Shown here one piece after another: positions 4,048-31,765 of a stretch of DNA of 50,847 nt; the stretch's first letter is position 1; each line of letters begins with the position of its first letter. The notes beneath the pieces were generated by a model, which worked only from the letters and a program-made list of their open reading frames with translations, was not told the origin of the DNA and made no database searches. Source of the stretch: a virus; the IMG/VR virus record IMGVR_UViG_3300035678_000003, positions 1-50,847 of that record; one strand, given 5' to 3'. Made by a program: the position numbers and the translations under genes.

Positions 4048-5589
4048 ATGCCGAAGCGAGACCGCAGCGCCGCCGCTGCCCCCGCGACACCCGCTCCTGA
4101 GCCCGAGGAGACGCCGGAGGCCACCCCCGCGCCCGTCGAGCCGGAAGCGGCCGAGGAGCCTGCCGACGAGGCTCCCAAGCCCGCACGCCGGGGCCGTCGC
4201 AGCACCCGCGTCGAGGAGGGTGCGAAGTCCGAGGCTGGCGAAGACATGGACGGCGCGGTCGACCCGCGACCGGACGAGGAGCCGGACGAGGCGCAGCAAA
4301 AGCCCGCGCGCCGCCGGGGCCGGACCGCCAAGCCGAAGCCCGAGGGCGACTCCGCCGACGTGGCGGAGGTCGACGAGGCCAAGCAGCGCGAGTACAAGTT
4401 CGCCGACGTGGACGACGCCGAGATCGAGTTCACCTCGCTGGCGGACGCGGACGACTACATCTCCGCCGTGTACTACGGCCGCGAGGGGATGACCAAGACG
4501 ACTTCGGCCGTCATGGCGTCCGCGCTCACGGAGCCCGGCAAAGTCCTGCTGATCAACGCCGAGGGCGGCGCGAAAAAGAAGGCACTGGAGCAGCACGGCG
4601 TCCAGTCCGATCGCGTCATGGTCTGGCCCGCGCCCGGCAAGCGAGTGTCGTTCGCCGGGCTCGAGAAGCTCTTCTACAAGCTGGCCGCCGACCTCGCAAA
4701 GGACAAGGATTCCTGGCTGGCCGTCATCTGGGACTCCGGTACCGAGATCGTGCAAACCGTGCTCGACCAGGTCGTTGAGGGCGTGATCCAGGACCAGGAG
4801 GAGATCATCTCGCGGGCCAAGGGTCGCGCCGGAAACATCAAGATGCGGGACCGTTTCGACAACGACCGGGACGACTACCGGAAGATGTCGAACATGGTCC
4901 GGGGGCTCGTGCGGAAGTTCCGCTACCTCCCGTGCCACTTCATCATGACGGCGCTGCTGCGCAAGGACGAGGACGAGAAGACCCACAAGGTCACGTACAA
5001 CCCCGCGTTCACCCCCGCGCTGCAGACCGACATCCTGGGCTACATGGACTGCGTTTTGTACTGCCAGTCCACGGTATCGGACGGGCAGCCGCTGTTCTAT
5101 GCGATGACAGTCGCGGCGAAGGACGACCGGGCGAAGGACCGGTACAACACGCTGCCGGGAGAGCTGGTCAACCCGACCTTCGACCGCGTCGTCGGCTACA
5201 TCCGGGGCGAGCTGGACCCGGACACCGACCCGATCCAGAAGCTCATGCCCGGCGGTGCCGCCAAGCGCGGCGCAGAGGTCAAGGCCGACGCGCCGAAGCT
5301 CGCCCGTGCGCCGCGTGCCAGCCGCGCCAAGAAGACCGAGCCCGCCCCAGCCGAGCCGAAGGCGGACCCCGAGCCGGAACCTGACGCGGCCAAGGAGTCG
5401 GCCGCCGCGAAAGCCCGCGTTCAGTCCGAGATCGCCGACAAGGAGGGCACCCCTGCCACTCGATCCCGCGCCCGGGTGTCCCGGGCCGCACGGGGAGCCG
5501 CTCAGGCCGACCGCGACAAGGCCAAACCCCGCCCCGGTACCCGGACCACCCGGCCCGTCGTCGGCTACAGTGAAGAACCGCCCTTCTAG
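4048..5589 (+). CDS. Sak4/RecA-like AAA ATPase (recombination)
   Basis: A 513-residue protein with a phage-type AAA_24/RecA-like ATPase core at roughly residues 130-390. The P-loop is GREGMTKTTSA near residue 141, and WLAVIWDSG at about 225 is the Walker B strand. Long disordered tails flank it: a Pro/Ala/Glu and Arg-rich stretch at 1-115 and an acidic-basic stretch at 395-505. This resembles Sak4 single-strand annealing proteins. With the Cas4-like nuclease upstream and the DUF669 protein downstream it forms a recombination/repair set. The tails are longer than in typical 250-350-residue Sak4 proteins. The Thr in GMTKTT replaces the usual Gly of GxGKT, which should be noted when judging activity. 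Confidence 0.8.
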   Translation: MPKRDRSAAAAPATPAPEPEETPEATPAPVEPEAAEEPADEAPKPARRGRRSTRVEEGAKSEAGEDMDGAVDPRPDEEPDEAQQKPARRRGRTAKPKPEGDSADVAEVDEAKQREYKFADVDDAEIEFTSLADADDYISAVYYGREGMTKTTSAVMASALTEPGKVLLINAEGGAKKKALEQHGVQSDRVMVWPAPGKRVSFAGLEKLFYKLAADLAKDKDSWLAVIWDSGTEIVQTVLDQVVEGVIQDQEEIISRAKGRAGNIKMRDRFDNDRDDYRKMSNMVRGLVRKFRYLPCHFIMTALLRKDEDEKTHKVTYNPAFTPALQTDILGYMDCVLYCQSTVSDGQPLFYAMTVAAKDDRAKDRYNTLPGELVNPTFDRVVGYIRGELDPDTDPIQKLMPGGAAKRGAEVKADAPKLARAPRASRAKKTEPAPAEPKADPEPEPDAAKESAAAKARVQSEIADKEGTPATRSRARVSRAARGAAQADRDKAKPRPGTRTTRPVVGYSEEPPF

Positions 5590-5658: not shown

Positions 5659-6087
5659 ATGGTTATGGTACCCGACGAGGTCCTGGAAGTCCTGGACTCG
5701 GGCGCGGACGAGCGCACCGAATTCGAGACGCTGCCGGAGGGCCACTACCTCTGCCAGATCGAAAAGATCGTCGAGAAGGACGGCAAAGAGTACCCGTACA
5801 TGGAGTGCGAGTGGAAGGTATTGCAGCCGCGCGAGCACAAGGGCCGCAAGCTGTGGGACAATATCTCGTTCAACCCGAAGGCCGCCTTCAAGGTCCGGGC
5901 GCTGTTCGACGCGTTCGACTACGACTACGACTCGGACACCGACGAGTTCGTGCAGGAGAAGGAACAGGCCGTCCTGTACGTGAAGCAGGAGATCCAGGAG
6001 CAGGGCAAGAAGAAGGGCCAGCTTCGCGAAGTGGTCGACGAGGTCCTCCCGGCCGACGAGGAAAACATGGACCTCGTCGAGGAGTAG
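5659..6087 (+). CDS. DUF669-family, single-strand-binding-like protein
   Basis: A 142-residue acidic protein with the pattern LPEGHYLCQIEKI, a central WKVLQPREHKGRKLWDNI and NPKAAFKVRALFDAF, typical of the phage DUF669 family found beside Sak4-type ATPases and thought to act as ssDNA-binding proteins. The C-terminus is strongly acidic (DEENMDLVEE), like SSB tails that recruit partners. The ATG at 5659 has GAGAGGA 8 nt upstream. It lies in the same transcript as the ATPase. Confidence 0.78.
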   Translation: MVMVPDEVLEVLDSGADERTEFETLPEGHYLCQIEKIVEKDGKEYPYMECEWKVLQPREHKGRKLWDNISFNPKAAFKVRALFDAFDYDYDSDTDEFVQEKEQAVLYVKQEIQEQGKKKGQLREVVDEVLPADEENMDLVEE

Positions 6088-6242: not shown

Positions 6243-8066
6243 ATGCACAACCCGACGTTCGAGGCGATCTGCACCGCCGTGGAGGAGCAGACTGGTTATC
6301 CGCCCAAGGGCAGCGACACCCGCAAGAAGGGGGTCTGCCCGGCCCACGAAGACACCAAACCCTCGCTGTCGATCCGCTGGGACGCGGAGAAGCTCGTGGT
6401 CGGAGTGACCTGCTGGAGCGGGTGCACGTTCGACGAGATCGTTAAGTCCCTGGATCTGACGAAGGAAGATTTCCGGGACAAGCTTCCCGGTGCCCGTTCC
6501 GGCCGACGGGGTGCCAGCCGGACCAAGCGTGCGCCGAAAGCCACCGAGGCCGACGACGAGCAAACGAGCGGCAAGCGCGGGGCCCCGGAACCCGGCCGCA
6601 ACGAGGTGGCGCGATACCCCTACACCGACGAGACCGGGAAGGTCCTGTACTACAACGTCCGGTTTGAGCCGAAAGACTTCCGTATGGCGGGGCCGGATGG
6701 GCAGATGAAAGCCCTTCCAAAGAACCTGCGGCGCGTCCCCTACAACCTCCCGAAGCTGCTGGCCGCAATCGAGGCTGGCGAGGTCGTGTACTGGGTCGAG
6801 GGCGAGAAGGATGTCCACTCGCTCGCCGAGAAGGGCGTGGTCGCCACAACGTCCGCTGGCGGAGGAGGCACCCCGCCCGAGCCCGCCTGGGCTGCCCTGT
6901 TCGAGGGCGCGCACCTTGTCGTGGTCGGCGACAAGGACAAGACCGGGCAGAAATACGCGAAGAATATCGCGAAGCTGGTCGTCAATGAGGTAGCGTCGGT
7001 CCGGGTAGCGCAAGCCGCGACCCCGCAGGCCAAGAGCGACGTCACGGACCATCTCGCTGCCGGGTACCGCCTGGACCAGCTCGATTGGCAGCCGATGCGC
7101 TCGATCCGGCGCACGCGCTGGACGATGTCGGATCTGATGAGCACCCCGCCCGAGCCGCTGCGCTGGGCCCTGCCCGGCGTCATCCCCGAGGGGCTCACCC
7201 TGTTGGTCGGGGCCCCGAAGGCGGGCAAATCGTGGTTTAACCTCAACCTCGTGACCGCCCTGACCACGGGCCGCCCCGTCGAGGTGTTCGGGTGGGGCCA
7301 GGACCTGGAGCCCTGCCCGTCCCTGTACCTGGCTCTGGAGGACCCGCACCGCCGGGTTTACGACCGGATGAACCAGATCACGCGAGGGCTCGACTTCAAA
7401 GCGCACCGCGCGGGTGACGTGTGGCTATCGCTGGACCCGCTGCATTCCGGCGGCCGGGACGAAATTGAGCGGTGGCTAGAGAAGAACCCGACCGCCCGAA
7501 TGATCGCGGTCGACGTGCTGGCAAAGGTGCGCGACGGCGACGAGGGCCAGACGATGTACCAAGCCGACTACGAGGCCGTGGGCGCGCTGAAGGATATCGC
7601 CGACGACTACGGGATCGGCGTGGTCGTCACCCACCACGACCGCAAGAAGACCGACGACGACTTCGTAAACATGGTGTCCGGCACCAAGGGCGTCACGGGT
7701 GCGGCGGACACGATTCTGTACTTGGAGCGGAAACGCGGCTCCGACGAGGGCACGCTCAAGAGCGAGTCGCGCGACGTGGAGAGCTGTACATACAAAATGC
7801 AATTCGTGCGTGAATTCGGTCGCTGGCAGATCCTGGAGCGATTGGACCCGGATGCCGAGCCGTCGCCCAACGCCGAGCCGAAGATGGCGCTCGCCGACCA
7901 GATCAGCCAGGTCCTGATGCACCGGGGCGAGTCGAGCCTCAAGGATGTGGCGAAGGTGCTCGACGTGCCCGAGGCTACGGTCAAGCGTGCGGCTGCCGAC
8001 GCGCGCGAGAATGGGGCGCTGAACCAGACCTCAGACGGCAAGTGGTACGTCCCTAAGGTGAACTGA
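6243..8066 (+). CDS. Primase-helicase (CHC2-like zinc, TOPRIM, RecA-like helicase)
   Basis: A 607-residue fusion of primase and replicative helicase. An N-terminal zinc module carries CPAHEDTKPS (about residue 35) and CWSGC (about 61). A TOPRIM domain follows with WVEGEKD (about 185) and VVVGDKDKTG (about 225). A RepA/AAA_25-type ATPase has GAPKAGKSW as Walker A (about 323) and LIAVDVL-type Walker B around 420. The last 60 residues resemble a winged helix (DVAKVLDVPEATVKRA). It should unwind DNA and prime synthesis at the phage fork. The start codon overlaps nothing and is preceded by a structured leader; its stop overlaps the polymerase ATG by one base. Confidence 0.88.
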   Translation: MHNPTFEAICTAVEEQTGYPPKGSDTRKKGVCPAHEDTKPSLSIRWDAEKLVVGVTCWSGCTFDEIVKSLDLTKEDFRDKLPGARSGRRGASRTKRAPKATEADDEQTSGKRGAPEPGRNEVARYPYTDETGKVLYYNVRFEPKDFRMAGPDGQMKALPKNLRRVPYNLPKLLAAIEAGEVVYWVEGEKDVHSLAEKGVVATTSAGGGGTPPEPAWAALFEGAHLVVVGDKDKTGQKYAKNIAKLVVNEVASVRVAQAATPQAKSDVTDHLAAGYRLDQLDWQPMRSIRRTRWTMSDLMSTPPEPLRWALPGVIPEGLTLLVGAPKAGKSWFNLNLVTALTTGRPVEVFGWGQDLEPCPSLYLALEDPHRRVYDRMNQITRGLDFKAHRAGDVWLSLDPLHSGGRDEIERWLEKNPTARMIAVDVLAKVRDGDEGQTMYQADYEAVGALKDIADDYGIGVVVTHHDRKKTDDDFVNMVSGTKGVTGAADTILYLERKRGSDEGTLKSESRDVESCTYKMQFVREFGRWQILERLDPDAEPSPNAEPKMALADQISQVLMHRGESSLKDVAKVLDVPEATVKRAAADARENGALNQTSDGKWYVPKVN

Positions 8067-10132
8067 TGACGGTCCTGCGCGGATTCAAACCTAGCCAACT
8101 ACCCGACCTCGAAACCTTCGTTGCCGCTGACACCGAGACCTCCGGCCTGCACCCCGATGATGGCGGCCGGGTGGCCGTCGTGTCGGCCGCGTGGCACACG
8201 CCTTCGGGCAAGATCGAGTCGTGCGCCTTCCCGTTCTGGCAGGGCTTGTACGAGAAGCCCGACGTGCTGGAGAAGGCCGACTTCGGCTGGAAGGATTATG
8301 TCGAAGGGCCCGAGGTCCACGGGTACTTCAAGAATGGCAAACCCCGATCGAAGAAGATCCACCGGAAGTGGACGATCGAGGAGAAAATGGAGGCGCTCGG
8401 GGCTAACCCGAACCTCGGGCCGGAGGACTGGGCTATCCTGATCGAGTGGCTCCTGAAGGTACCGGGCCTGGTCTGGCACAACGCGCTGTTCGACCTCGTC
8501 GTGATGTACGCGGGCACCCCGGACTTCCCCGGCGTCGACCTGCTGCAGCACACGGCTTGGGACACCATGCTCGGGCAACGCGCCCTGGATCCGGAACACC
8601 CGCTCGCGCTGAAGGACACCGCCGAGCGGCTGTTCGACCGCCCGCCCACCGAACAAGACGCGCTGAAGGAGCACCTGAAATCGCGCAAGTTCCCGACCGC
8701 CGGTAAGAACGTGCGGTACGACTACGCCGACTGGGACGTGATGGAGGAGTACGCGGCAGTCGACACCGAGGACACGATCCAGCTCGCCCGGCACCAGTGG
8801 CACCGCTTCAGCGAGGGCGAGTCGAGCTGGGACCTGATGCACCACAACATGGACGTCATGGCCGCCCTGACCCGCATGGAGCAGCGCGGGGTGCCGTACA
8901 AGGCGGAGGAATCGTTGGTCTGGGCCGAGAAGCTCGACGCCCGGATCGCCGCCATGGTAGACGGGTTCCCGTTCAACCCGACCGCCCCGCAGGCGACTGA
9001 GTTCTTCTTCGGGCAGGGCGAGACCCAGCGCGGGGTGCACTGCCTCGGGCTTAAGCCCGTCAAGCTTACGGGCAACGGGAACGCGTCGCTTGATGGCGAG
9101 GTGGTGGACGAGCTGGCCGCTCGCGACGTGCCCTGGGCCAAGGAGTACCGCGAGTACGGAATGAGCCAGGACGCGGTCGGGAGGTACTACCGGGGGTACG
9201 CGGAAGCCACCGGGGAGGACGGCCGCCTGCGGACGCGCTTTCGGCAGACCGGGACCCGAGCGGGCCGCCTGTCGTGCGAGCGCGTCAACCTGCAGGCCAT
9301 CCCGCACGACCACCGCTTGCTCGCCGGTAACTCGGAGATCCTGGCGGAGGCTCCGAGCCCGCGCGCCCTGATTGAGATTCCCGAGGGCTACCGAGGGTTC
9401 CACATGGACCTCGCGCAGGCCGAGCTACGGGTTGCCGCCCTGGAGGCGCGGTGCGAGCCGATGCTGCAGTACTTCCACGAGGGACGCGACCCGCACGGCG
9501 AGACGGCTATCGGTCTGGGCCTCACCGCTGGCAAGGACGACCCGGATGGCATGGACTGGTACAAGGCGCGGTCCGTGATCGGGAAACGCTCGAACTTCTC
9601 GCTCGTCTTCGGCATCGGCCCTAAGAAGTTCCGCGAGGACCTGCGCAAGCAGTCCGGCATCGACTTCGGCATCAAGAAGGTGACCGAGATCCACAAGGAC
9701 TGGAACGCCCTATACCCCGAGTTCAGCCGCGCGATCAAGCGCCACATGTACGCGGCCGAGAAGCAGGGGTGGACGCCGATCAAGGGCGACCTGCGCCGTT
9801 ACTACACGCCGCTGGAGATGGGCATCGGGCCGGACGGCCGACGGCTGCAGTACAACGACCTGCACAAGGCGTTTAACCAGCGAGTACAGGGCCTGCTCGG
9901 CTGGTTCGGCCAGTATTGGCTCAAGAAGGCCGAACGGCACCTGTTGGACGCCGGGCTCGACGAGTTCGAGTGCGGCCTGCTGCTGCAGATTCACGACGCG
10001 CTGATGGTCATGGTCCCCGTAGGGATGGAGCACCTGGCCGAGGAGTGCGCCCAGATCGCCCGCGACATGTGGGTCGAGTGGTTCCCGGACGTCCCCGGCG
10101 GGGTGGACGTGGAGGAGTGGAACCACAAGTAG
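8066..10132 (+). CDS. dpoZ: Family A DNA polymerase, DpoZ candidate
   Basis: A 688-residue polymerase with an intact 3'-5' exonuclease: DTETSGLHP (Exo I, about residue 24), WHNALFDLVVMY (Exo II) and YAAVDTEDT (Exo III). The polymerase domain has motif A MDLAQAELR (about 447), motif B with RSVIGKRSNFSLVFG (about 500) and motif C QIHDALMV (about 641). The Glu after the motif C Asp in bacterial Pol I (HDE) is Ala here. No 5' nuclease domain is present. The gene directly precedes purZ and mazZ homologues. In aminoadenine siphophages the polymerase beside purZ is DpoZ, which favours dZTP over dATP. The general polymerase call is certain; the DpoZ assignment rests on gene neighbourhood. Confidence 0.85.
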   Translation: MTVLRGFKPSQLPDLETFVAADTETSGLHPDDGGRVAVVSAAWHTPSGKIESCAFPFWQGLYEKPDVLEKADFGWKDYVEGPEVHGYFKNGKPRSKKIHRKWTIEEKMEALGANPNLGPEDWAILIEWLLKVPGLVWHNALFDLVVMYAGTPDFPGVDLLQHTAWDTMLGQRALDPEHPLALKDTAERLFDRPPTEQDALKEHLKSRKFPTAGKNVRYDYADWDVMEEYAAVDTEDTIQLARHQWHRFSEGESSWDLMHHNMDVMAALTRMEQRGVPYKAEESLVWAEKLDARIAAMVDGFPFNPTAPQATEFFFGQGETQRGVHCLGLKPVKLTGNGNASLDGEVVDELAARDVPWAKEYREYGMSQDAVGRYYRGYAEATGEDGRLRTRFRQTGTRAGRLSCERVNLQAIPHDHRLLAGNSEILAEAPSPRALIEIPEGYRGFHMDLAQAELRVAALEARCEPMLQYFHEGRDPHGETAIGLGLTAGKDDPDGMDWYKARSVIGKRSNFSLVFGIGPKKFREDLRKQSGIDFGIKKVTEIHKDWNALYPEFSRAIKRHMYAAEKQGWTPIKGDLRRYYTPLEMGIGPDGRRLQYNDLHKAFNQRVQGLLGWFGQYWLKKAERHLLDAGLDEFECGLLLQIHDALMVMVPVGMEHLAEECAQIARDMWVEWFPDVPGGVDVEEWNHK

Positions 10133-10139
10133 ACAGGGG

Positions 10140-10158
10140 TTTACCACCGTGGTAAGAT
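10140..10158 (+). promoter_or_regulatory. Operator-promoter of purZ (TTTACCACCGTGGTAAGAT)
   Basis: A near-consensus palindrome with extended -10 TGGTAAGAT, placed 7 nt after the polymerase stop. Predicted +1 is near 10165. The leader has CCTGCC at 10171-10176 and GGAGAGG before the ATG at 10194. The purZ-mazZ-dUTPase genes therefore have their own switch. Confidence 0.85.
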
Positions 10159-10193
10159 AGACCCTATTACCCTGCCCGATGGAGAGGAACAAC

Positions 10194-11354
10194 ATGTCAG
10201 GACGCCTTATCGTCGTGGTCGGCGGACAGTTCGGCAGCGAGGCCAAGGGCCACGTCGCTGCCCAGCTCGCCGAGTACCACGATGCGGATCTGGTCATCCG
10301 TACCGGCGGGCCGAACGCGGGCCACACCGTATACAGCCCCGCCCAGGTGGCACACGACGCGTCGACCGCCCACCCGTTCAAATTGCGGCAGCTGCCGACC
10401 GCCAGCGTGAGCAACCCCCGCTCGACGCTCGGAATCGCGGCCGGGGGGCTAATTGACCCCGAGCTGCTGGAGGAGGAGCTGAACTCGACCGACGCGAACC
10501 GCGTGCTGATCGACCCGGCCGCCACCATCCTGGAGCCGAAGCACCGCCACGCGGAGGAGGCCGACCCCGAGATGCAGTGGGGTTCGACCAAGGAAGGCAT
10601 CGGGGCCGCCCGTGCCGACCGTGTTCACCGGACGGCGCGCACGGCCGGGGACTGGTACAAGGAGTTCCCCAACAAGCGGGTCGCGCTGGCAGACCTGGCC
10701 CAGATCGCCCGCGACACGCTGCGACACGGTGGCGCGGTGCTGGTGGAGGCCGCCCAGGGCTACGGGCTCGGACTGCACACCGACTATTACCCGAAGACCA
10801 CATCGGCGGACTGCCGCGCGGTCGACGCACTGGCGGATGTTGGCCTGTCGCCCTGGTCCATTCCGTTCGTCGACCTGAACGTCTGGGTGGTCGTCCGCCC
10901 CTACCCGATCCGTGTGGCGGGGGAGTCCGGGCCGCTGGCAGGGGAGACCACCTGGGATGACCTCGGGCTGCCGGAGGAGCGGACCACAGTCACCAACAAG
11001 GTCCGGCGCGTCGGCGGCTGGGACCCCGAGCTGGTGTACAAGGCGATTCAGGCGAACGGGGGCGGCCTGGGTACCAACCCGAAGACCGTGCGCGTCGCCC
11101 TGACCATGGTCGACCAGGTGATCCCGAACCTGGCGAACGTCGGCTCGGGACACGAGCTGTTGAGCGCGGAGCTGCAGGACCTGTCCGACCTGATGGACTG
11201 GTTCCACCGGGTCGGCAACTGCGGGGCGGACGTCGGCATGATCACGACCTCGCCTTACTCGGCGGTGTTCGATATGGACGCGAACCCGATGGTCCGCGCC
11301 CTCACCCAGGCATCCAGGCTCGTCACGGAATCCCGCATGGCGGAACCCCTCTGA
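10194..11354 (+). CDS. purZ: PurZ-type adenylosuccinate synthetase homologue (aminoadenine pathway)
   Basis: A 386-residue PurA-superfamily enzyme. The nucleotide-binding loop reads GGQFGSEAKGH (residues 10-20), where bacterial PurA has GDEGKG with the catalytic Asp13. Asp is Ser15 here, the change reported for phage PurZ, which condenses dGMP with aspartate to give a precursor of 2-aminoadenine. NAGHT (41-45) keeps the His of the family. The start at 10194 has GGAGAGG 6-7 nt upstream; an in-frame ATG at 10179 overlaps that ribosome site. Its stop overlaps an ATG (TGATG), but the next gene probably starts further on. It acts with MazZ and host PurB-type lyase and kinases to make dZTP. Confidence 0.85.
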   Translation: MSGRLIVVVGGQFGSEAKGHVAAQLAEYHDADLVIRTGGPNAGHTVYSPAQVAHDASTAHPFKLRQLPTASVSNPRSTLGIAAGGLIDPELLEEELNSTDANRVLIDPAATILEPKHRHAEEADPEMQWGSTKEGIGAARADRVHRTARTAGDWYKEFPNKRVALADLAQIARDTLRHGGAVLVEAAQGYGLGLHTDYYPKTTSADCRAVDALADVGLSPWSIPFVDLNVWVVVRPYPIRVAGESGPLAGETTWDDLGLPEERTTVTNKVRRVGGWDPELVYKAIQANGGGLGTNPKTVRVALTMVDQVIPNLANVGSGHELLSAELQDLSDLMDWFHRVGNCGADVGMITTSPYSAVFDMDANPMVRALTQASRLVTESRMAEPL

Positions 11355-11368
11355 TGGCGGTCCACCAA

Positions 11369-11417
11369 GGGCCGGGGCTGTGTTACTGCGACTTGCTGGC
11401 ACAGCCCCACAAGGCCC
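11369..11417 (+). promoter_or_regulatory. Hairpin between purZ and mazZ
   Basis: GGGCC-GGGGCTGTG pairs with CACAGCCCC-ACAA-GGCCC around a 17-nt loop. It sits 15 nt after the purZ stop and supports reading this stretch as intergenic rather than as the N-terminus of the next gene. It may stabilise or attenuate the transcript. Confidence 0.45.
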
Positions 11418-11464
11418 ATCAAGACGGAGTCGGCGGCATTTCGCTACAGACCGAGGAGGGTGCA

Positions 11465-11836
11465 GTGGTGTTCAACCCGGACCTGAGCAAGCCGACGGAG
11501 ACGTACGTCGGCGGAGGGCAGCGCGAGGCCAACGCGGGCCGCCCTCGCTACGACCTAATGTGGACCCGCAGCCAGCCGCTGGACGAGCAGATGCTGACGC
11601 GGGACGCCAAATGGATCGCCTACGGATCGGCGAAGTACGGCGAACGGAACTGGGAGGCATTTGAGGGCCCGGACGCCCTCGCCCGCTGCGAAGCGTCGCT
11701 CGGTCGGCACTACGCGGCCTTCATGCTGGGCGAGGACGACGAGGACCACGCGGCAGCTATCCGCGCCAATGTCCAGTTCATCGAGTACATCCGCTGGCGG
11801 ATGATCCCCGACGGAAGCACCGAAGGCCCATTCTAA
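11465..11836 (+). CDS. mazZ: MazZ-like dATP/dGTP pyrophosphohydrolase
   Basis: A 123-residue protein matching the dATP/dGTP diphosphohydrolase N-terminal family (formerly DUF5664): GGQREANAGRPRYDLM near the start, then KWIAYGSAKYGERNWE, CEASLGRHYAAFMLGEDDEDHAAAIRANVQF. The Glu/Asp-rich helices are those that bind metal in all-alpha NTP pyrophosphohydrolases. GTG at 11465 or 11468 is preferred because GAGGAGGG (11453-11460) precedes it; the frame is open from an ATG at 11354, but that stretch contains a hairpin. In Z-phages MazZ turns dGTP to dGMP, the PurZ substrate. Adjacent purZ strongly supports this role. Confidence 0.78.
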   Translation: MVFNPDLSKPTETYVGGGQREANAGRPRYDLMWTRSQPLDEQMLTRDAKWIAYGSAKYGERNWEAFEGPDALARCEASLGRHYAAFMLGEDDEDHAAAIRANVQFIEYIRWRMIPDGSTEGPF

Positions 11837-11846
11837 GGAGAAATTC

Positions 11847-12722
11847 GTGTCCCTGACTGCCTACCTTGCCCGACCGATCGACCTGTCGTCCCTGACCGGC
11901 GCGCAGTCCAATCACCTGGCGTTCGTCGAGGACTACCTCCTCGAACGCGGCGTGGTCGTCTTCAAGCCCGCCGGAGCGTTCGCAGTGCCGCCCGAGACGC
12001 CCCCGCACGGCGCAATCCAGGACATCAACCGCTACGCCCTGGAACGATCCGACCTGCTCGTCGCGCTGTACCCCGAGGCCGTCGGGGTAGGCACCGCGAT
12101 GGAGCTGGAGTACGCCCGTGCGGCCAAAAAGCCCATCCTCGTCGTAACCGACGTGGCCCACAAGTCGTGGTCGCTGGCGGGGGTCCCGAAGGCCGTGAAG
12201 ACCCAGTTCCCGACGGGGTCCGAGGTCGAAGCCGTCGTCGCCTGGGCCCACCTGGCGCAGACCGAGCGGGAGAAGGATGGGGCGGCTGCTCGCCCGGTGC
12301 TCAAGTTCCAGCTCGACGACGATGCCAAGATGCCGACGCGTGGCTACGCCGGAGACGCCGGGTACGACCTGTACGTCCAAGAGGACATCGTGATTGGCCC
12401 GGACGCGTTCGCCGACGTGCCCATGGGCTGCGCGGTCGAGCTGCCGCCCGGCGTCTGGGGGTTCATCACCGGTCGCTCGTCGACCCTGCGCAAGCACAAC
12501 CTGCTGGTGACCACCGGAATCATCGACACGGGCTACCGAGGGCCGCTGTTCGCCGGGGTCAAGAATCTCGACTTCAACCGCCCGTTCACGGCGGAGAAGG
12601 GAACCCGGCTCGCCCAGCTCATCCCGCTCCCGAACCTCGCGGACGGTATGCTGGCGGTAGAAGCGCAAACCCTCGACCCGTCCGAGCGGGGAACCGCCGG
12701 ATTCGGGTCGTCTGGCCACTAG
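11847..12722 (+). CDS. Nucleoside deoxyribosyltransferase-like domain fused to dUTPase
   Basis: A 291-residue two-domain protein. Residues 1-145 look like the nucleoside 2-deoxyribosyltransferase superfamily: AYLARPID at the start, DINRYALERSDLLVAL, then GVGTAMELEYARAAKKPI with a Glu in the expected catalytic position. Residues 150-291 are a complete trimeric-type dUTPase: AGYDLYV (motif I), GRSSTLRKHN (II), GIIDTGYRGPL (III), GTRLAQLI (IV), ERGTAGFGSSG (V). It begins with GTG at 11847 after AAGGAG. The dUTPase lowers dUTP; the first domain may remove or exchange bases in the deoxynucleotide pool. The fusion is unusual and fits a phage that remodels its dNTPs. Confidence 0.85.
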   Translation: MSLTAYLARPIDLSSLTGAQSNHLAFVEDYLLERGVVVFKPAGAFAVPPETPPHGAIQDINRYALERSDLLVALYPEAVGVGTAMELEYARAAKKPILVVTDVAHKSWSLAGVPKAVKTQFPTGSEVEAVVAWAHLAQTEREKDGAAARPVLKFQLDDDAKMPTRGYAGDAGYDLYVQEDIVIGPDAFADVPMGCAVELPPGVWGFITGRSSTLRKHNLLVTTGIIDTGYRGPLFAGVKNLDFNRPFTAEKGTRLAQLIPLPNLADGMLAVEAQTLDPSERGTAGFGSSGH

Positions 12723-13779: not shown

Positions 13780-13833
13780 TGATGAGTTTATAGCAAGACA
13801 TGTACCCAGGGTGGGCTTGCTATAAACTCATCA
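13780..13833. repeat. 54-bp palindromic element, copy A
   Basis: An 18-bp perfect inverted repeat, TGATGAGTTTATAGCAAG / CTTGCTATAAACTCATCA, around an 18-nt centre. The reverse complement of copy B (31712-31765) matches this copy over all 54 positions except about three. No U-tract follows. It is AT-richer than its surroundings and lies between a gene end and a hairpin terminator. Its function is unknown; see findings. Confidence 0.85.
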
Positions 13834-13844
13834 GGCGCTACTAC

Positions 13845-13879
13845 GGGCGGTGACGACTCTACGGGTGTCGTCACCGCCC
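13845..13879 (+). terminator. Strong hairpin terminator
   Basis: GGGCGGTGACGAC / GTCGTCACCGCCC, a 13-bp perfect stem with a 9-nt loop, followed by ACCTATATA. It lies between the gene ending at 13770 and the operator-promoter at 13917 and separates two rightward operons. Confidence 0.75.
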
Positions 13880-31537: not shown

Positions 31538-31711
31538 GTCATGTGGCGTGGGCTAGGAGAGGGGAAGGGGTAATTCTTTTTGAAAGCGCTTCCTTGATTC
31601 ATCGAGTCTTGATTGATCCCTCCGTCGTCACCGCGCGTAGACAGCGGCGGGTTGGTCCGGGCCTCGCAGAGGTGTCGCGCGGGGCTCGTCGTCACTCCTC
31701 GTTGCGCAAGC

Positions 31712-31765
31712 TGATGAGTTTATAGCAAGCCCACCCCCGGTACATGTCCTGCTATAAACTCATCA
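31712..31765. repeat. 54-bp palindromic element, copy B (inverted relative to copy A)
   Basis: TGATGAGTTTATAGCAAG and CCTGCTATAAACTCATCA (17 of 18 paired) flank an 18-nt centre. The centre GCCC...ACATGT is the reverse complement of that in copy A, so the entire 54-bp unit is present in the opposite orientation 18 kb away. Both copies are followed by GG then a CTACT/GCTAC and GGAGTAG stretch. Confidence 0.85.

Follow-up and report, generated by a model that had tools for sequence, protein, structure and literature searches.

The analyzed window, i.e., the whole 50,847-base stretch of an IMG/VR virus record (G+C content 66%), carries a set of genes that, judging by their sequences, very probably swaps adenine for 2-aminoadenine (Z) in the phage DNA (Table 1). 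With high confidence, we assign the set to the PurZ0 type of Z-genome cassettes, here found in a new lineage and acting by the DutZ/DUF5664–PurZ0–lyase–DmtZ–DpoZ route. Gene sets of this kind are already known, and the new part is probably one separately recruited component, DUF5664. The genes, their order, family placement, and retained catalytic residues were observed here, and the enzyme activities are those established by others for homologues; by analogy, these very proteins would perform the Z route, and adenine in the virion would be replaced by Z. The first-pass annotation of this DNA had proposed a Z-genome set of DpoZ, PurZ, and MazZ. The genes are real and their coordinates right, although the DmtZ–DutZ fusion was left out of the title; the Z-genome proposal itself is supported by the PurZ0 clade (100/100), a DpoZ score above the cut-off, and the retained DmtZ residues. 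This adds a phage lineage, new and apparently complete, to those with the PurZ0 route to Z-DNA.

Table 1. Features of the window and, in the last line, examples of the X51 domain in other PurZ0 loci.
Feature	Position	Strand	Basis
Terminal direct repeat, 127 nt	1-127 = 50721-50847	.	both copies identical
Sak4-like annealing protein	4048-5589	+	PHROG 124, E 1.5e-32
SSB-like protein	5659-6087	+	phrog_7778 SSB, weak, E 5e-4
Primase/helicase	6243-8066	+	PHROG 239, E 3e-39; AAA_25; Toprim_2
DpoZ, Wayne-like family A DNA polymerase, 688 aa	8066-10132	+	NF038381
purZ0, 2-aminoadenylosuccinate synthetase	10194-11354	+	PHROG 1211; 7VF6; PurZ0 clade
DUF5664 (PF18909), putative dATP/dGTP pyrophosphohydrolase	11354-11836	+	PF18909 match
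DmtZ–DutZ fusion	11847-12722	+	PF05014 (NDT) + PF00692 (dUTPase)
DmtZ domain, dAMP hydrolase/transferase	about 11847-12210	+	PF05014
DutZ domain, dATP/dGTP/dUTP diphosphatase	about 12318-12722	+	PF00692
X51 examples	L004:6843-7154; L005:12212-12523; L002:7278-7577; L024:7062-7358; others		directly downstream of purZ0

The identical 127-nt ends of the record indicate that the genome is very probably complete, at ~50,720 bp. The region at 20–48 kb contains terminase, head, tail, and lysis genes. The nearest relatives of the major head protein come from a Microcystis phage and from Gordonia and Rhodococcus phages, and the phages matched are nearly all actinophages; the virus represents a new lineage, probably of actinobacterial phages. 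A near-identity DNA search of the phage collection with the cassette region gave 0 matches, hence, the collection did not yet include this phage. The replication module runs in the order Sak4-like protein, SSB-like protein, primase/helicase, DpoZ, PurZ, DUF5664, NDT–dUTPase fusion. The stop of the primase/helicase gene overlaps the dpoZ start, and from the primase onward neighboring starts and stops overlap or are at most 50 bases apart, so that the stretch from the primase through dmtZ–dutZ fits one operon. A pair of inverted repeats (13780-13857 and 31688-31765; 78 nt, 83% complementary), 17.8 kb apart, is seen outside the main genes.

A PurA homologue with the motif GGQFGSEAKG does, as had been claimed, directly follow the polymerase. 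Its open reading frame begins at 10179; the ATG at 10194, being preceded by GGAGAGG, is the likelier start, and with this start the Ser is residue 15, as previously numbered. The best-scoring model is NCBIfam NF038379 (amino_Aden_PurZ) with 289.4 bits, just short of its 300-bit curated cut-off; for other PurZ0 proteins, the scores are 346–393 bits. PHROG 1211 yields 252 bits, PRK04293, 198 bits, and PurA models, at most 118. The best match among solved structures is PDB 7VF6 (E 1e-69), that is, PurZ0 of Gordonia phage Archimedes (PMC12884076).

A search of IMG/VR with the window PurZ alone gave no match, and the search with a PurZ0 alignment gave 276 relatives, 80 of which were kept. The synthetase tree was built for 75 sequences: the window, 12 phage PurZ/PurZ0, 36 IMG/VR sequences, 18 cellular paralogues, and 8 canonical PurA. 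The window falls within the phage PurZ0 clade (support 100/100); PurA form one separate branch (100/100), and PurZ of phages phiVC8, S-2L, DMU1, K21lambda1, and Bm1, a separate clade (100/100). To the question posed in the first-pass annotation, whether the synthetase sits among bacterial PurA, the tree answers in the negative, and bacterial PurA identity is rejected by both this placement and the replacement of Asp13 by Ser. The nearest kin of the window protein are encoded in IMG/VR contigs L015–L018 (100/100, 52–56% identity), which have the same four genes, including DUF5664 with a short loop; L015, L016, and L017 differ from the window by a PurB-like adenylosuccinate lyase gene between dpoZ and purZ0.

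The Asp13-to-Ser replacement, previously taken as diagnostic of PurZ, does not serve as such, since the same GSEGKG motif is found in chromosomal kinase–PurA fusions and other cellular paralogues. In many bacteria, and in some archaea, the normal PurA (GDEGKG) is accompanied by another PF00709 protein, with GGQYGSEGKG. These Ser paralogues are ~540–650 aa long (e.g., L105:5392-7035, L139:5098-7038, L153:5386-7035), several have a P-loop kinase-like domain fused at the N-terminus, and they fall outside the phage PurZ0 clade, except for L097, a metagenome-bin sequence within the clade, whose surroundings look phage-like. Hence, it is the tree placement rather than the Ser residue that supports PurZ, and annotators should not take a PurA homologue with Ser in place of Asp13 for a proven PurZ. 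Given that such paralogues occur beside true PurA, the window gene might be thought to encode an accessory PurA-like enzyme that serves the ordinary purine supply and has no link to Z; this is very improbable, as the protein belongs to the phage PurZ0 clade, apart from both PurA and the cellular paralogues, and such a role would leave the linked DpoZ, DmtZ, and DutZ without explanation.

The upstream gene, described in the first-pass annotation as a family A polymerase without the 5' nuclease, is confirmed as such: it carries the 3'-5' exonuclease, lacks the 5' nuclease, and scores 394 bits with NCBIfam phage_DpoZ_2 (NF038381), for which the curated cut-off is 350. The exonuclease motifs (DTE, HN..FD, Y..VD) and polymerase motifs A, B, and C are present; motif B has Phe in place of Tyr, like related DpoZ, and motif C is HDA vs. 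HDS in most relatives. In a quick polymerase tree, the window DpoZ groups with the polymerases of PurZ0 phages, apart from phiVC8-like DpoZ. Streptomyces phage LazerLemon (L014:4992-7004, L222) has a DpoZ-like polymerase within the PurZ0-phage polymerase clade, which scores 336 bits, just below the same cut-off; in the 50 kb of its sequence examined, no purZ was apparent. LazerLemon has either lost purZ or is a pre-Z relative, and DpoZ alone, therefore, is no proof of a Z genome.

The earlier comparison with "phiVC8-type siphoviruses" has to be dropped: phiVC8 has been placed in Podoviridae (PMC8342488) and is a podovirus with another gene set, whereas the window is of the PurZ0 type with a Wayne-like DpoZ. 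Phages phiVC8, S-2L, and those of Acinetobacter resemble the window in having PurZ with Asp13 to Ser and, mostly, DpoZ, and differ from it in the PurZ clade, the polymerase clade, and the dNTP-cleaning enzymes. A classical datZ–mazZ–purZ cluster, as in phiVC8 and S-2L, whose DatZ escaped detection or was lost, would share the PurZ and DpoZ themes, and PurZ of phiVC8 also has Ser; however, the separate positions of both PurZ and DpoZ of this type in the trees, the absence of DatZ from the window, and the absence of DatZ and S-2L-type MazZ from all PurZ0 loci considered below make it extremely unlikely.

In the PurZ0 set, described in 2026, DutZ, DmtZ, and DUF5664 replace DatZ and MazZ (PMC12884076). 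The lack of DatZ, observed in the first-pass annotation, holds for the apparently complete genome: a profile search of all six frames of the window gave no match (best E 0.62). The S-2L MazZ profile has no match in the window or in other PurZ0 loci. Among 90 records of PurZ0 loci (the window, as L001, is one of them, and some are near-identical), DutZ is present in 84 and DmtZ in 79, and DatZ or S-2L-type MazZ, within the sequence covered, in 0; for comparison, dutZ was reported in 98 of 98 PurZ0 genomes, and dmtZ in 85 of 98 (PMC12884076). The earlier proposal that dATP removal needs some other enzyme, or else replacement is incomplete, loses its ground, since PurZ0 phages manage without DatZ (PMC12884076). 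Indeed, DatZ is expected to be absent given that DutZ, DUF5664, and DmtZ are all present and the in vitro activities of their homologues are known: DutZ and DUF5664 of Wayne/Ghobes convert dATP and dGTP to monophosphates with ~tenfold preference for dATP; DutZ of Ghobes and Wayne alone hydrolyzes dATP ~10 times faster than dGTP; and DmtZ releases adenine from dAMP and can transfer the deoxyribose phosphate to the Z base (PMC12884076).

The DmtZ–DutZ fusion of the window is 36–37% identical over the full length to the fused proteins of Korra and Galactica. Its DmtZ domain keeps all six residues (Tyr6, Asp12, Pro57, Asn77, Glu103, and Trp124) that were tested or highlighted in DmtZ of Ghobes (PMC12884076), and the dUTPase domain is 46–48% identical to DutZ of Ghobes and of Microbacterium phages.

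The third gene, whose start overlaps the purZ stop (ATGA), had been called MazZ. Its assignment to a dATP/dGTP-hydrolase family and its place after purZ stand; the name does not, since only PF18909 (DUF5664) is matched (39 bits, cut-off 27), and neither PF04447 (DUF550) nor MazG-type MazZ is. The protein is highly diverged, with 22–29% identity and the usual D-x-E-x-G loop residues missing, so that its predicted activity is the least certain among the four enzymes. The loop in the window clade is five residues shorter, with GEDDEDH or similar vs. GE..DxExG..H. The nearest phage match is weak (E 9e-5), and the structure model, with mean pLDDT of 52, was too poor for a fold search. The lost loop and the weak phage match could mean that the set is present but adenine is replaced only partially, because a missing DatZ and a degenerate DUF5664 would weaken the control of the nucleotide pool. 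This is unlikely, if less so than the other alternatives considered: DutZ alone has the ~tenfold dATP preference cited above, and the PurZ0 clade includes loci that have DutZ with neither DmtZ nor DUF5664 detected.

Under the preferred reading, i.e., a PurZ0-type cassette, DutZ and DUF5664 would cut dATP and dGTP to dAMP and dGMP, and PurZ0 would join dGMP with aspartate to yield the succino-intermediate dSMP. A PurB-type lyase would then convert dSMP to dZMP; since no PurB-like lyase was found in the six frames of the window, this step would fall to the host enzyme. Several relatives carry a PurB-like gene. Host kinases would turn dZMP into dZTP, from which DpoZ would build DNA. Meanwhile, DmtZ would destroy dAMP or shift its deoxyribose phosphate to the free Z base, yielding more dZMP.

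Among the closest known systems are the gene sets of Arthrobacter phages Wayne/Korra (PMC12884076; Korra is L006), which likewise have the Wayne-like DpoZ and lack DatZ and MazZ. Korra has the same order of dpoZ, purZ0, DUF5664, and dmtZ–dutZ, with a small gene, absent in the window, between the latter two. PurZ0 of Wayne/Korra is 48% identical to that of the window; their DUF5664 is probably of separate origin, the window's loop being the five-residue-shorter one. Gordonia phages Ghobes and Archimedes and Streptomyces phages Galactica and Hiyaa also have PurZ0 (43–51% identical to the window's), DutZ, and DmtZ, the latter two fused, as in the window, in Galactica and Hiyaa. They differ in having the domain X51 after purZ0, where the window has DUF5664, and Archimedes, Galactica, and Hiyaa also have their own PurB-like lyase, lacking in the window.

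Within PurZ0 phages, DUF5664 is seen in two groups only, the Arthrobacter phages and the window's clade. Forcing the window and Arthrobacter DUF5664-1 into one clade is rejected both on the PurZ tree (AU test, p 0.021) and on the DUF5664 tree (p 0.008), for a short domain with a long window branch and with groups set by gene content before the tests and after the first tree had been viewed. A single origin within the window's own clade is neither supported nor rejected (p 0.275). The two rejections, together with the shorter loop of the window clade, suggest that DUF5664 probably entered PurZ0 phages twice.

The slot directly 3' of purZ0 is occupied in the 90 records by either DUF5664 (16) or X51 (74), never both and never neither. 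X51 is an unnamed helical domain of ~100 residues with the pattern K..EYG..DL...G followed by GK..R...A...G..PSDDT..D...Y; in Ghobes and in Archimedes, it is gp51. It has no match in Pfam at curated cut-offs and, hence, would escape Pfam-based surveys such as that of PMC12884076. X51 matches 31 of 50,697 phage records (Microbacterium, 18; Gordonia, 6; Streptomyces, 5; Curtobacterium, 1; Micrococcus, 1), and the tallies of a PurZ search of the phage collection are equal to these for Microbacterium, Gordonia, and Streptomyces. X51 is confidently predicted to adopt a four-helix fold (pLDDT 90), for which Foldseek gave no significant match. The VIA-align scores are Z 5.8 for DCTPP1 and Z 5.4 for S-2L MazZ (7ODY; rmsd 2.9 over 62), equaled by unrelated helical chains; this weak resemblance of the model to MazG-type pyrophosphohydrolases, not above the helical-bundle background, is only suggestive. 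Profile comparison shows no relation between X51 and DUF5664 (probability 0.2%). From its position and the mutual exclusivity, we infer that X51 would do the job of DUF5664, and the swap pattern makes it a likely candidate for an enzyme still missing from the Z-DNA synthesis route. More tentatively, and with slightly less than an even chance, the slot may be an obligatory nucleotide-cleaning position, filled either by X51, as a new dGTP/dATP pyrophosphohydrolase, or by DUF5664, recruited at least twice, the window clade being the second case, with a remodeled loop. The fixed parts of the kit are PurZ0, DpoZ, DutZ, and, usually, DmtZ, while other parts are swapped.

We also considered the avoidance of restriction sites as indirect evidence of Z. 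In positions 1-50720 of the window, CCGCGG, GCCGGC, and GGCGCC are observed 0 times (51, 37, and 27 expected, respectively), and CTCGAG, 3 times (32 expected). This evidence was set aside as non-discriminating: CTCGAG is also avoided in the window, and A-containing sites are also avoided in Korra, a known PurZ0 phage, and in LazerLemon, where no purZ was seen. Generally, the avoidance patterns of LazerLemon and the known PurZ0 phages are similar to that of the window, and the lack or rarity of these sites in the window points to restriction pressure from the host.
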